From assembly GCA_012512805.1 (NCBI GenBank), contig JAAZDN010000035.1:1-42362 (forward strand): a stretch of 42,362 nt of DNA. Direction: 5' to 3'. This DNA comes from Erysipelothrix sp. GTDB taxonomy: Bacteria > Bacillota_I > Bacilli_A > Erysipelotrichales > Erysipelotrichaceae. Shown here piece after piece: positions 3,142-10,188 of the stretch. The notes beneath the pieces were generated by a model. It was not told the DNA's origin, ran no database searches, and was given only the letters and a program-made list of their open reading frames with translations. The stretch's first letter is position 1. The number at the start of each line of letters is the position of its first letter. A program made the position numbers and the translations under genes.

Positions 3142-4422
3142 CTATACGTCTTTTGGTAATACTAGGTTTAATACAATCCCTAGGATTGCAGCGAGTGCCA
3201 TTCCTTCTAACATGAAGCCTCCACCAAATTGGATGACTGCTCCACCTAATCCAACGACGATCATTGTACTTGCGATGATGACGTTGCGTTGTAGTGAGAA
3301 GTTTACTTTTTCATCAACTAAGATACTTAATCCGTTTGATCCGATAACTCCGAATAAGACGATTGATAGTCCACCGAGTACTGGATCTGGTATTGTTCTG
3401 ATTAATGCTGTGAATGGTGCGATGAATGAGAGGATGATTGCGATTACCGCAGCTCCCATAACAACGTATACTGATCCAACTTTTGTCATTCCGATAACAC
3501 CTGTATTTTCACCGTATGTTGTAGTATCTGGTCCACCGATTAAACAGCTGATTGTTGAAGCGACACCATCTCCGATTAATGTTCTTGCATATCCTGGATC
3601 TTTCGCAAAGTTTTTACCTGTGATTTTTGATAAGACAGAGTGTGCTCCGATATGTTCACTAATTGTTACAAATGCGATCGGTATAATTGCTAGGGCACGA
3701 CCTGTTACTCTAAAGTCGTATGTATCGAAGTTACCAACTTTTACTGGGAACATAAACTCAGGAACTTTAATCCATCCTGCTCTTGCTGCTTCAACGACGG
3801 GTGTGAAATCAATCATACCGAGTGCTGTTGCTGTAAGGTATCCTGTAACAATTCCAAGTAAGAATGGAATAAGTTTTGAGAAGCCTTTACCCCAGATTGT
3901 GAAGATAACTACTGTTGAGAATGATACGAGTGCTACGAGCGCTGTTTTCCATTCAAAACCATTTTCTCCGACTACAAGTCCTGCTTGTGATACTGCGTTT
4001 GCTGACATTCCAAACCCGATGATAATGATCATTGATCCAATAACTACTGTTGGAAGTAATTTATCAATCCAGTCTGTACCAATAAGTTTAACTACAAATC
4101 CTACTGCGATAACTGTTAGTCCCGCGAAGACTAATCCACTTTGTCCTGCTGACATTTCTCCAGCCATGTTCGCTGCAGTTACTGCTCCGATAAATGAGAA
4201 TGATGATCCTAAATACATCGGTACTTTTTTCTTCGTTAAGAAGATATAGATTAGTGTACCAATCCCTGATGTGAAGAGTGCAACCCCAATTGATCTTCCT
4301 GTTAATATCGGAACTAAAATTGTTGCTCCGAACATCGCAAAAACGTGTTGGAATGATAACATCAACCATTTAACTGGTTGTGGTTTCTCATCAATTCCAA
4401 TGACTAAATTATTTTCATTCAT
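3142..4422 (-). CDS. uraA: Uracil permease (NCS2 family)
   Basis: 426-residue nucleobase transporter of the NCS2/UraA (PyrP) type, expected to import uracil with protons. It has about 12-14 hydrophobic segments, the N-terminal motif GIDEKPQPVKWLMLSFQH, the substrate-site region TISEHIGAHSVL, and the family signature GGPDTTTYGENTGVIGMTKV. Start choice: an upstream TTG at 4428 is one base from the ribosome site, whereas the ATG at 4422 has GAGGG seven bases before it, so the ATG is taken. The leader carries a PyrR-binding loop and a terminator, which ties the gene to pyrimidine control and supports uracil as substrate. Confidence 0.93.
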   Translation of the reverse strand: MNENNLVIGIDEKPQPVKWLMLSFQHVFAMFGATILVPILTGRSIGVALFTSGIGTLIYIFLTKKKVPMYLGSSFSFIGAVTAANMAGEMSAGQSGLVFAGLTVIAVGFVVKLIGTDWIDKLLPTVVIGSMIIIIGFGMSANAVSQAGLVVGENGFEWKTALVALVSFSTVVIFTIWGKGFSKLIPFLLGIVTGYLTATALGMIDFTPVVEAARAGWIKVPEFMFPVKVGNFDTYDFRVTGRALAIIPIAFVTISEHIGAHSVLSKITGKNFAKDPGYARTLIGDGVASTISCLIGGPDTTTYGENTGVIGMTKVGSVYVVMGAAVIAIILSFIAPFTALIRTIPDPVLGGLSIVLFGVIGSNGLSILVDEKVNFSLQRNVIIASTMIVVGLGGAVIQFGGGFMLEGMALAAILGIVLNLVLPKDV

Positions 4423-4452
4423 GTACAATCCCTCTTTCTCGTAGATCTCAAA

Positions 4453-5356: not shown

Positions 5357-5409
5357 AACAATTATCCTCGATATATTTGCTTGATCAAATACAGGAGGAG
5401 AATAGAACT

Positions 5410-6777
5410 ATGGCTAAAAAAATTAGTAGCTTTTTTAAGCTTGACGAGAACAAGACAACAATCTCAACTGAAGTCTTAGCAGGCTTTACAACGTACTTTG
5501 CGATGGCATACATTTTAATTGTTAACCCGCAAATTTTATCAGAAGCAGGACTTCCAAGTAACGGTGTCTATGTGGCAACAATCGCAGCAGCATTTGTTGG
5601 GACAATCGTTATGGGATTATTTGCAAACGTTCCTTATGCGCAAGCACCAGGGATGGGATTAAACGCATTCTTTACGTACACAGTAGTATTTAAATTAGGT
5701 TATACACCTTATGAAGCATTAGCATTGGTCTTCATTTGTGGGATGATCAACATCTTAATTACTGTTACAAGTGTTAGAAAACATATCGTTCGTGCAATTC
5801 CAGAAACACTTCAACAAGCAATCGGAGCTGGTATTGGATTATTCATCGCATACATCGGATTATTAAACGTAAACTTTATCGGATTTGGAGCAGGTGTTCC
5901 AGAATTATCAGGATTTGCTGATCCATCAGTACAACTTGCAATGATCGGTTTAGTAATTATGATTGTTCTATTAATTAAGAAAGTAAAAGGTGCAATGTTG
6001 ATCGGTATCATTGCTACTACATTAATCGGTATTCCTATGGGTGTTGTTGACGTGAGCAACCTTAGCCTCGTAAGTGGATATTCAGAAGTATTTGCTGATT
6101 TCGGATCAATCTTCGGAAAAGCATTAGGTAGTGAAGGAATTGTAAGCTTATTTAAAAACCATAGCTTAATTGCAGTCTTCCCAATTATCTTTGCATTCAG
6201 CTTAACTGACACATTTGATACAATTGGAACATTCATTGGTACAGGACGTCGTTCAGGTATCTTCACTGATGATGATGTTGAAAACTTAGAGAATGGAAAA
6301 GGGTTCTCATCAAAAATGGACCGTGCAATGTTCGCAGACGCAATCGCAACTTCAGTAGGATCAATCTTCGGAACATCAAACACAACAACATTCGTTGAAA
6401 GTTCTGCAGGTATTGAAGCAGGTGGACGTACTGGATTAACTTCAGTTGTTACAGCATTATTATTTGTCGCATCATTAATCATTGCACCAATCGTTCAATT
6501 AGTTCCTGCAGCAGCAACTGCTCCAGCATTAATTATCGTAGGTATCCTTATGAGTTCATCATTTGCTGATATCGACTGGTCAGACTTCAGTGTTGCTGTA
6601 CCAGCGTTTATTACAGTTGTAATGACAGTATTAACATACAGTATCTCTAATGGTCTAGCATTTGGATTCATTGCTTACATCGTTGTTAAAGTTGCCCTAG
6701 GCGAAGCAAACAAAGTACACCCAATTGTTTATGGAAGTACATTACTATTCATCTTAAGTTTCATCATCGGAGCTTAG
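5410..6777 (+). CDS. pbuG: Guanine/hypoxanthine permease (AzgA-type NCS2)
   Basis: 455-residue membrane transporter of the AzgA/PbuG group, which imports guanine and hypoxanthine. The N-terminal TISTEVLAGFTTYFAMAYILIVNP, split here over the first span, is typical. APGMGLNAFF, SLTDTFDTIGT and the SNTTTFVESSAGIEAGGRTGLTS region mark the nucleobase site. About 12-14 membrane segments are visible. An upstream in-frame TTG at 5377 is rejected because AGGAGGAG lies between it and the ATG at 5410. The guanine riboswitch in the leader agrees with the substrate, and a strong terminator closes the unit. Confidence 0.92.
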   Translation: MAKKISSFFKLDENKTTISTEVLAGFTTYFAMAYILIVNPQILSEAGLPSNGVYVATIAAAFVGTIVMGLFANVPYAQAPGMGLNAFFTYTVVFKLGYTPYEALALVFICGMINILITVTSVRKHIVRAIPETLQQAIGAGIGLFIAYIGLLNVNFIGFGAGVPELSGFADPSVQLAMIGLVIMIVLLIKKVKGAMLIGIIATTLIGIPMGVVDVSNLSLVSGYSEVFADFGSIFGKALGSEGIVSLFKNHSLIAVFPIIFAFSLTDTFDTIGTFIGTGRRSGIFTDDDVENLENGKGFSSKMDRAMFADAIATSVGSIFGTSNTTTFVESSAGIEAGGRTGLTSVVTALLFVASLIIAPIVQLVPAAATAPALIIVGILMSSSFADIDWSDFSVAVPAFITVVMTVLTYSISNGLAFGFIAYIVVKVALGEANKVHPIVYGSTLLFILSFIIGA

Positions 6778-7099: not shown

Positions 7100-7477
7100 T
7101 TATCAACAATAGTATTTTTCCACAATTACTATTGAAATACATTACTATTTTATATTTATGATCATTATTGGTTTATTGATAGCAATGGTAAGCTTTCCCC
7201 ATCTTATCCATATTACTTTTTAAATGTTATCCACAGTGTGTGGATAAGGTGTATAACTAAGTTTAGCCTTTATACATAAGGTTTATTGCCACTTATCAAC
7301 TAACAATTACATTTTATTTTTTTATTCTTTACACCTTTATTAACAGTTTTAAATACCAAGGGGATAAGTCTTTAAATATTTATCTTATTTTATCCCCTAA
7401 AAAACTTGTGGATAACTGTGGATAACTTTTCTAAAGGTATGTGTAAAGGCTTGTTGAGAACTATCTGTTGTGGATAA
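7100..7477 (+). other. oriC, DnaA-box cluster upstream of dnaA
   Basis: A cluster of DnaA boxes in a very AT-rich stretch. Exact matches to TTATCCACA or its complement are at 7227-7235 (plus), 7239-7247 (minus), 7407-7415 (minus), 7417-7425 (minus) and 7469-7477 (minus). Near matches include TTATCAACA around 7100 and TTATCCATA around 7204. The first two exact boxes face each other. This is the expected position of the upstream origin sub-region in Firmicutes and marks the initiation region, together with the second element after dnaA. Confidence 0.88.
7359..7398. repeat. Inverted repeat inside oriC
   Basis: AGGGGATAA (7359-7367) and TTATCCCCT (7390-7398) are perfect nine-base arms around a 22-base AT-only-like core. 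They sit between two groups of DnaA boxes and resemble but do not match the box (CCCC instead of CCACA). Could be a cruciform or a binding site for an origin regulator. Confidence 0.5.
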
Positions 7478-7550
7478 TTTTTTATATAATATTTTTACTT
7501 TTAACTTACACAGTTTTAAGGTAGAATATTAATAATAAGGCGGTGATATA

Positions 7551-8924
7551 ATGACAAATAAGAATTCAAAATATAATGGTTATTGGGATAATATCGCCAC
7601 ACTTTTAAAAGAATCAATGGATAATGATGTTGTATTCGATACGTATTTTTTAGAAACACAGATTCATGAAATTACGGAGAATAATATTATTCGGTTGGAA
7701 GTAAAGTCTAATATGGATAAAATGGTTCATGGACAGTTTACAGATTTGATTAGTGCGGCAGCGAATACCGTTCTTGAAGGTAATTATAGTATTGAAGTAT
7801 ATAGTAAAGATGAATTAGAAGTACTCATTAAGAACAGTAAACCTAAAAAAGTTAATATGAAACTAGATTTGGATATTGATCTTGTCGATAACTTATTGGA
7901 TAAGTTTACCTTTGAAAATTTTATTGTTGGGGAAAGTAATAAAGAGAGTCATGCTGCTTCATTAGCAAGTGCAATTCGTCCTGGTGAGTTTTATAACCCA
8001 CTCTTTATTTATGGTAACTCTGGACTTGGAAAAACTCATTTACTGCATGCAATTGGAAACTATGTTAAGAAAAGTAGTAAGGGGAAGTTAAAGGTCTTAT
8101 ACATTACAAGTAATGATTATGTGACTCGTGTTGTAAATAGTTTTAAAAACAATAGTATTGAAGAGTTTAAACAAGACATGTATAACTTAGATGTACTCTT
8201 AATTGATGATATCCAATTTTTAGCTGGTAAGGAAAAGTCACATGAAATTTTCTTCTCCATCTTTAATGAACTTGTGAACAATAGAAAACAGATTGTCATA
8301 ACAAGTGATAAGCATCCTACTGAAATTAATGGACTTGAAGATCGTTTGATCAGTCGTTTCTATTCAGGATTGTCTACAAGTCTTGATTCTCCTGAGTTTG
8401 AAGTTGCTTATCGTATATTAGAGAAGAAGATGGAACAACAGATGATTAGTCCTGAGAGTGTTGATCCTGATGTTATATCCTATTTAGCAACAAACTTCTC
8501 TAAAGATGTTCGTAAACTTGAAGGAGCACTCAATCGTTTAATTTTCTTTGCAATTAACTTTGGTAAGGATTCACAGATTACGATGCAAGTTGCAACGAAG
8601 GCATTTAAGAATGATCATAAGAAGGTTAATGATATTCTTAGCTTAGATTCCATTAAAGAGACGGTAGCAACCTATTATGGCTTAACGATTAAACAAATTG
8701 ATTCTAAGAATAGAACGGGGATTATTGTTAACGCACGACATATCTCAATGTACTTAGTTCGTAAACATTTGGATATATCATATAATCAAATAGGACAAGC
8801 CTTTGGTGGGCGTGATCACTCAACGGTTATTAGTGCATATGATAAAATAATGGCGAAACTAAAGTCTGATACGAGTTATCAATTAGCAATATCAGAAATA
8901 GAAAAGAAGATTTTAGTGAATTAG
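7551..8924 (+). CDS. dnaA: Chromosomal replication initiator DnaA
   Basis: 457-residue AAA+ initiator that binds DnaA boxes and opens the origin. Domain I occupies about residues 1-90. A short linker leads to the AAA+ core with Walker A GNSGLGKTH (about 155-163) and Walker B VLLIDDIQFL. Sensor I (IVITSDKHP) and the arginine-finger region (GLEDRLISRF) follow. Domain IV ends with the DNA-binding signature GGRDHSTVISAYD near residue 419. Length is normal. The ribosome site is modest (GGCGGTG). DnaA boxes on both sides of the gene imply self-control and origin function. Confidence 0.98.
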   Translation: MTNKNSKYNGYWDNIATLLKESMDNDVVFDTYFLETQIHEITENNIIRLEVKSNMDKMVHGQFTDLISAAANTVLEGNYSIEVYSKDELEVLIKNSKPKKVNMKLDLDIDLVDNLLDKFTFENFIVGESNKESHAASLASAIRPGEFYNPLFIYGNSGLGKTHLLHAIGNYVKKSSKGKLKVLYITSNDYVTRVVNSFKNNSIEEFKQDMYNLDVLLIDDIQFLAGKEKSHEIFFSIFNELVNNRKQIVITSDKHPTEINGLEDRLISRFYSGLSTSLDSPEFEVAYRILEKKMEQQMISPESVDPDVISYLATNFSKDVRKLEGALNRLIFFAINFGKDSQITMQVATKAFKNDHKKVNDILSLDSIKETVATYYGLTIKQIDSKNRTGIIVNARHISMYLVRKHLDISYNQIGQAFGGRDHSTVISAYDKIMAKLKSDTSYQLAISEIEKKILVN

Positions 8925-8945
8925 TTAACCACAATAATTCACATG

Positions 8946-9032
8946 TTATTCACAGGTAAAAATGATATAATAGACTATATATAAAGGTTGTTTGTGACTT
9001 ATCCACGTTATCCACAGCCCTAATAGTAATAA
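8946..9032 (+). other. Second oriC element with DnaA boxes and DnaA-trio-like repeats
   Basis: Between dnaA and dnaN are TTATTCACA (8946-8954), TTATCCACG (8999-9007) and TTATCCACA (9008-9016), the last two in direct tandem. They are followed by GCCC and then TAATAGTAATAA (9021-9032), four successive TAA/TAG triplets. Tandem boxes, a short GC stretch and TA(G/A) triplets match the layout of the basal unwinding system described for Bacillus subtilis, so strand opening probably starts here. Confidence 0.7.
8963..8971 (+). promoter_or_regulatory. Extended -10 promoter for dnaN
   Basis: TGATATAAT is a perfect extended -10 element. No good -35 is seen at the normal distance. Transcription from it would run through the DnaA-box pair into dnaN. 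Confidence 0.5.
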
Positions 9033-9066
9033 GTACTTAAAGACATTAATACATAGGAGGAAATTT

Positions 9067-10188
9067 ATGCATTTTAAAATATCGAAGAAAACATTTTACC
9101 AAGCTTTAGATCGTGTTGCTCGAGCTATTTCTGCGAGTTCACCAATTCCAGCATTATCAGGAATTAAGATTGTTTTATTAAATGATGAAATTCAATTAAC
9201 CGCTAGTGATTCTGATATGTCTATTTATGATGTCATTAAAAGTGATGAAGATAATCAACTTGTTATTTATAAAACTGGATCCATCGTTATTGAAGGAAAA
9301 TACATTTTAGACATCGTTCGTAAAATTGATGCGACATCATTAGAAGTAAATTCAGAAGATGGCTATCTCACAAAAATTTCAGGAGGTAATACTGAATTCA
9401 AAATCAATGGTGTACCCACAAGTGACTATCCTTTAATTGATTTTGCGAAACCTGAAGACACATTTGTATTAAGTGCAAATGAACTTCATCAAATGATCGT
9501 TCAAACAAGCTTTGCAACAACAGATCGTGAAAACCGTCCAATCTTAACTGGTGTTAATGTTACACTTGAAAACGGTCGTTTAACATTCGCTGCAACAGAC
9601 AGTAATCGTTTAGCGCGTAAGACCTTAACAATTGATAATGAAAATAACATTAATTTTATTATTCCAGCATCTTCATTACAAAAAATCGCACGTATTATTG
9701 ATCGTAATACGGATGTTGAAGTTGCGGTATCAGATAAGAAGGTTCAATTCTACTTTGAAGACATGATCATTCAAAACCGTTTAATTGATGGAATATTCCC
9801 AGATACAAACCGCTTTATTCCAAATACATATCAAACAATCATTACCTTAGACAGCCGTGATTTACTAAATGCAATTGGCCGTGCTTCATTTATTAAGAGT
9901 ATTGATGGTGTTTCAATCGTAAACTTCCAAATTACTGAAAATAATTTCGTAATTTCAAGTCGTTCACAAGAAGTTGGATCATCAGTTGAAGAAATTATTA
10001 AATATACCTTTGAAGGAGAACCTTTAAACATATCATTCAGTGGTAAATTCCTATCAGAAGCCTTACGTGCAATTGATGGATCAGACATCAAAATCTCATT
10101 TGAAGGTGAAATGAAACCCTTCGTTGTTCGAGAAATTGAAGACTTGGATACAACACATTTAATCTTACCTGTTAGAACAAATTACTAA
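9067..10188 (+). CDS. dnaN: DNA polymerase III beta sliding clamp
   Basis: 373-residue ring-forming clamp that tethers replicative polymerase to DNA. The three-domain beta-clamp pattern is visible, from MHFKISKKTFYQALDRVARA through ATTDRENRPILTGVNV and ATDSNRLARK to the C-terminal hydrophobic-pocket end HLILPVRTNY. Length is normal. AGGAGG lies six bases before the ATG. It follows dnaA as usual and is closed by a terminator, so recF-gyrBA form a separate unit. Confidence 0.98.
   Translation: MHFKISKKTFYQALDRVARAISASSPIPALSGIKIVLLNDEIQLTASDSDMSIYDVIKSDEDNQLVIYKTGSIVIEGKYILDIVRKIDATSLEVNSEDGYLTKISGGNTEFKINGVPTSDYPLIDFAKPEDTFVLSANELHQMIVQTSFATTDRENRPILTGVNVTLENGRLTFAATDSNRLARKTLTIDNENNINFIIPASSLQKIARIIDRNTDVEVAVSDKKVQFYFEDMIIQNRLIDGIFPDTNRFIPNTYQTIITLDSRDLLNAIGRASFIKSIDGVSIVNFQITENNFVISSRSQEVGSSVEEIIKYTFEGEPLNISFSGKFLSEALRAIDGSDIKISFEGEMKPFVVREIEDLDTTHLILPVRTNY

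Follow-up and report, generated by a model that had tools for sequence, protein, structure and literature searches.

A probable basal unwinding element with divergent DnaA-trios between dnaA and dnaN of an Erysipelothrix chromosome

Introduction

Where does the chromosome of this Erysipelothrix sp. open, and does its DnaA read the opening strand as the Bacillus subtilis protein does? The atomic-level view of how DnaA chooses an opening site is recent and comes from one species. We analysed a stretch of 42,362 nucleotides (the window), one contig of a 1.17-Mb assembly that is 94.9% complete; among named relatives, metagenome assemblies of Erysipelothrix sp. come closest (dnaN identity 84 and 71%). 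The window carries dnaA (7551–8924) and dnaN (9067–10188) on the plus strand, followed 3' of dnaN by an S4-domain gene and then recF, and its cumulative GC skew has a minimum at about 4–5 kb, which is compatible with an origin near dnaA. The gene order upstream of dnaA differs from the usual rpmH–dnaA neighbourhood. rnpA (1480–1815) and the gene for a 60-kDa inner-membrane protein (569–1480), both on the minus strand, stand apart from dnaA, with two NCS2-type permease genes lying in between (3142–4428, minus strand, and 5377–6777, plus strand); a 44-residue open reading frame at 1852–1986 on the minus strand may be rpmH.

Anatomy of the dnaA–dnaN interval

Two weak DnaA-boxes, TTAACCACA (8925–8933) and TTATTCACA (8946–8954), each on the plus strand with one mismatch, lie at the start of the interval. 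They are followed on the same strand by a tandem pair in which TTATCCACG (8999–9007, one mismatch), the upstream member, abuts TTATCCACA (9008–9016), the consensus without mismatch. A reading of this DNA from its letters alone (the sequence-only reading) had proposed tandem boxes here and a GCCC step behind them, and both are present. GCC(C) occupies 9017–9020, its GC-rich first three nucleotides (9017–9019, plus strand) separating the box from the first trio, and 3 nt is also the commonest box-to-trio spacer in the family. Beyond the step the upper strand reads CTA ATA GTA ATA (CTAATAGTAATA, 9020–9031). After this comes an AT-rich stretch (9032–9062), presumably where opening would propagate, which ends at the dnaN ribosome-binding site (GGAGG at 9056).

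The same reading had also described four TAA/TAG triplets. Those letters do occur on the upper strand at 9021–9032, but they are on the wrong strand and one base out of register. The DnaA-trio, of consensus 3'-GAT-5', lies on the strand opposite TTATCCACA, and the published search accepts 3'-NAN-5' (PMC8287927); the box-strand sequence of the B. subtilis trios is CTACTATTACTTCTACTA (PMC10201434). Because the published trio sits opposite the TTATCCACA strand, the right reading is that of four NAT-type trios on the lower strand, 3'-GAT-TAT-CAT-TAT-5', at 9020–9031. One congener (G001, L002) tells the two readings apart, since its sequence, GCCC TTA TTA CTA TTA, holds four lower-strand NAT triplets and no upper-strand TAA/TAG run, keeping the one motif and losing the other. 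We rejected the upper-strand reading, as runs of at least three TAA/TAG triplets were found in just 24 of 82 relatives and in this congener not at all. The proposed comparison of triplets across relatives thus came out for those on the lower strand, which are conserved in the family and the class, and not for TAA/TAG.

Several other features were seen around the element. A short inverted repeat, AAGTACTT, follows the trios (9031–9038) and is present in one congener too, and TTATCTT...AAGATAA hairpins stand past the trios in some relatives (L012, L017 and L024). Upstream of the boxes, TGATATAAT (8963–8971) resembles an extended −10 promoter, and TGnTAAAAT is found at the same place in most of the family. 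Transcription of dnaN probably runs through the element, as judged from this motif.

Conservation of the trio register

The published rule for a basal unwinding system (BUS) specifies a box with at most two mismatches, a spacer of 0–16 and at least three consecutive 3'-NAN-5' triplets (PMC8287927). The window has boxes with zero (TTATCCACA) and one (TTATCCACG) mismatch, where up to four are allowed in the second box, spacers of 3 bp from the near box and 12 bp from the far box, and four trios. Only one of these is of the GAT consensus, which the rule does not require. Since the rule alone is too permissive in AT-rich DNA, we used the conserved register as our criterion. Exact boxes exceed the chance expectation: 0.45 would be expected in the whole window, and six are seen at the origin, five upstream of dnaA and one before dnaN.

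We compared 82 genomes of the same family with 200 dinucleotide shuffles. At least four lower-strand NAN triplets follow the boxes in 69 of the 82 (shuffle mean 10.8, maximum 20). Past the last box, 48 of the 82 have three or more NAT triplets, against 4.8 in shuffles; when a wider spacer was allowed, this count was 56 of 83 against about 7. In a family alignment anchored on the last box, T occupies offsets 5, 8, 11 and 14 from the box end in 81, 77, 72 and 70% of sequences. For 83 family genomes both dnaN and the DNA preceding it were available, and by eye almost every one shows two boxes, about 3 nt and a repeating NTA on the box strand ahead of dnaN; the layout of boxes and trios recurs in most of the other families that were sampled from the class. 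Deviant forms were also seen. Families f3 and f6 (G110, G252, G206, G248, G236 and others) have triplets CTA ACA ACA ATA, in which trios 2 and 3 lack the middle A on the trio strand, and their DnaA has Glu at the place of Asn187. In family f2 (G216, G223, G245 and G255) the boxes before dnaN, TTATGCACA and TTGTGCACA, form a shifted box consensus.

Taken by its sequence features, the region 8999–9031 is very probably the basal unwinding element of the chromosome origin and ordinary in kind.

The site of opening

The sequence-only reading also held that the origin is bipartite, with dnaA in the middle, and the layout fits this, with boxes on both flanks of the gene and trios solely on the dnaN side. 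An oriC1/incAB-like cluster of mixed orientation (7100–7477) holds eight boxes, five exact (at 7227 and, on the minus strand, at 7239, 7407, 7417 and 7469) and three near matches with a single mismatch (7100, 7116 and 7204), and the four boxes between 8925 and 9016 lie on the other side. Each of the three members of the genus has four NAT triplets on the dnaN side. No run of three NAT trios was found beside any upstream box in the window genome or its two congeners. Clostridioides difficile also has a bipartite origin, and its melting site was mapped to the dnaA–dnaN region (PMC7561715). The confinement of trios to the dnaN side supports opening on that side, as in C. difficile, and we infer that the chromosome would open at the dnaN-side element, as the earlier reading had predicted.

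Opening might instead begin in the upstream cluster (7100–7550), leaving the boxes between dnaA and dnaN a merely regulatory role, such as in dnaN expression or the titration of DnaA. That cluster does hold five of the six perfect origin boxes, together with the window's least stable 30 bp (7474–7503). The position of this unstable site varies, however: it lies elsewhere upstream in one congener (G001) and right after the trios in the other (G002). We dropped duplex stability as a discriminator of the opening site, as its minimum is upstream in the window genome and near the trios in a congener. The runs of three NAT triplets, which in the three genus members occur only before dnaN, the conservation of their register across the class and the melting of the C. 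difficile origin on the dnaN side all speak against upstream opening, which we regard as improbable. A second alternative is that T is kept at every third base for transcription or translation of dnaN, through its leader RNA, rather than for DnaA. The conserved extended −10-like TGnTAWAAT upstream of the boxes would place the element within the dnaN leader, and some relatives have a hairpin directly after the triplets. That hairpin is missing from the genus of the window and from most of the family, and it is the end of the DnaA-box that sets the three-base register, both boxes being conserved along with it. The same arrangement is a proven unwinding element in other Firmicutes (PMC8287927). 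An explanation by leader RNA therefore seems very improbable to us.

Under the preferred reading, an unwinding element read by DnaA, we infer DnaA binding, opening and an order of events from what was observed: the anatomy of the element, the conservation of its register, the residues of DnaA and the genes for helicase loading. DnaA on the tandem boxes (8999–9016) would be loaded onto the lower strand across 9020–9031, where adjacent subunits would each capture one NAT triplet and so separate the strands. The upstream cluster (7100–7477) probably assists by delivering DnaA across a loop. Homologues of DnaD, DnaB and DnaI would then load the helicase; the genome encodes a DnaD of 165 residues and DnaB-like and DnaI-like proteins.

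DnaA pocket residues and the first base of the trio

In the cryo-EM structure of B. subtilis DnaA, Arg202 and Glu228 bond base 1 of the trio (G), Asn187 (and Glu183) bonds base 2 (A), and Ile190 and Ile193 flank base 3; alanine at N187, I190, I193, R202 or E228 is severely harmful in that organism (PMC10721633). In a gap-free alignment, R202, E228, N187, E183, I190 and I193 correspond to K207, I233, T192, N188, V195 and F198 of the window DnaA. Hydrophobic residues (V195 and F198) thus stay at the places of I190 and I193, and the window protein keeps the arginine finger (R269, B. subtilis R264) and the backbone contacts K227/E228 (B. subtilis K222/E223). Across the family, 72 of 80 DnaA proteins have K at the position of R202, and none has E at that of E228, where I or V is usual. 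In Erysipelotrichaceae, as in most of the related families, A or T predominates at base 1 of the trio.

The two traits go together across all genomes, with G at trio base 1 in 59% of cases when DnaA has [RH]202 and E228, as in origins of the Bacillus/Clostridium type, in 12% when it has E228 only and in 8% when it has neither. On a DnaA tree built without the pocket-residue columns, all 13 rows with R202 and E228 are G-rich, and 77 of the 80 other rows are not. In this tree the trios of B. subtilis were taken from the literature, and those of family f7 (two genomes) and Paenibacillus cellulosilyticus, which the automatic finder had missed, were identified by visual inspection; the tree excludes ten outside sequences in which no confident element stood beside dnaA. 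Each trait changes about three times on the tree, and a sign test on independent pairs, with three pairs of which one is informative, cannot reach significance. Family f7, the sole family of the window's class that keeps both residues, also keeps GAT trios. There are exceptions in both directions: a member of f17 (G218) has K202 and I228 yet is G-rich (ATA CTA CTA ATA CTA), and one of f19 (G230) has H202 and E228 yet carries ATA repeats. These two cases do not conform to a simple residue/base code.

The outside comparison set consisted of Firmicute chromosomal stretches deposited in plasmid and phage collections (Priestia, Listeria, Staphylococcus, Clostridioides, Acetoanaerobium, Latilactobacillus, Enterococcus, Aerococcus and others). 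Many such plasmid- or phage-named records (H1–H80) hold chromosomal dnaA–dnaN origins and are apparently misassigned pieces of chromosome; a search of viral_contigs with B. subtilis DnaA found no relatives. In every outside sequence with a confident element and a DnaA carrying Arg/His202 and Glu228, the trios are CTA/TTA, with G or A as their first base. Staphylococcus aureus and C. difficile are AT-rich and keep GAT trios, so AT-richness is unlikely to be the cause of the loss of G.

The association of DnaA residues and trio bases has a structural rationale, and the split follows ancestry; our hypothesis is that the two have co-evolved. It is possible, and we propose it tentatively from the aligned residues, that base 1 would no longer be read as guanine here, R202 having given way to K207 and E228 to I233.

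DnaD and the opposite strand

In B. subtilis, DnaD reads the strand opposite the trios through its C-terminal tail, which recognizes TnnT motifs; a DnaD truncated to residues 1–205 loses single-stranded DNA binding, and cytosines on the opposite strand help DnaD (PMC10201434). In the window, the upper strand opposite the trios has three overlapping 5'-TnnT-3' motifs of the DnaD type, TAAT, TAGT and TAAT (9021–9030), and the rule for a DnaD recognition element (DRE) asks for at least two. A DRE also calls for a C-terminal DnaD tail able to bind single-stranded DNA, and no such tail was found in the window genome or in the two congeners. The DnaD of the window genome (G000:C29, locus L209, 1486–1983 on the minus strand) has 165 residues and matches B. 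subtilis DnaD to about residue 191, and in all three genus members (L209, L230 and L231) the protein ends about six residues past its C-terminal domain. Among the roughly 20 DnaD proteins compared, whose tails are judged by needs for DNA binding defined in B. subtilis alone, tails span 6–22 residues in f1 (16–22 in family members beyond the genus), 33 in f2, with YKWW, 41 in f13 and 49 in the GAT-type f7.

These tails bear on another explanation, which concerns the variant part of the element alone: G at base 1 may have been lost because DnaD, which prefers T and C, stopped reading the opposite strand, and not through the change in the DnaA pocket. The tail-less DnaD of the window genome fits this, given that the B. 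subtilis protein needs its tail for single-stranded DNA and gains from cytosine, and so does the long tail of f7 compared with those of f1. However, f2 and f13 have longer tails and yet lack G at base 1, and we consider this explanation unlikely. Joining the DnaA and DnaD findings, a readable recognition code between DnaA and its trios is conceivable, although we would not put it at even chances: the guanine-reading pair would have been replaced in Erysipelotrichaceae and in most families related to it, with loss of the base-1 G but not of the captured middle A, and in Erysipelothrix, which in addition has a tail-less DnaD, both strand-reading steps would have been rewired.

Comparison with known systems

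No such change of trio and DnaA pocket is described in the papers searched, a partial sample of the literature. What appears to be new here, as read from sequence, is the loss of base-1 G together with replacement of the G-contacting DnaA residues in the family and most related families. Natural variation of this kind, with trio base 1 and its pocket in DnaA differing jointly, allows a direct test of whether DnaA reads trios through a base code.

The closest model is the B. subtilis incC BUS, with boxes 6/7 and trios CTACTATTACTTCTACTA (PMC6669920, PMC10721633, PMC10201434). The window element shares with it the position between dnaA and dnaN, co-oriented tandem boxes, a GC-rich step, repeating triplets opposite TTATCCACA and a bipartite origin with dnaA at its centre. 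The B. subtilis-like arrangement that had been proposed for this site holds for all sequence criteria of the basal unwinding system, but not for the trios, which are not of the GAT type, or for the residues of the base-1 pocket. G stands at base 1 in one of the four trios of the window, the others having T, C and T; the consensus box is downstream, whereas in B. subtilis it is the upstream box 6; and the window DnaA lacks equivalents of Arg202, Glu228 and Asn187, as the DnaD of its genome lacks the DRE-binding tail. The C. difficile oriC2 region (PMC7561715) is alike in belonging to a bipartite origin of an AT-rich genome with trios only on the dnaN side, but has GAT-type trios (CTACTACTATTACTACTA) and a DnaA with R202 and E228. 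BUS elements have been predicted in 1755 of 2070 origins, with GAT the most frequent trio overall (PMC8287927). The window element satisfies the search rule that defines this set and departs from it in its trios, base 1 being mainly A or T in the family and in most related families.
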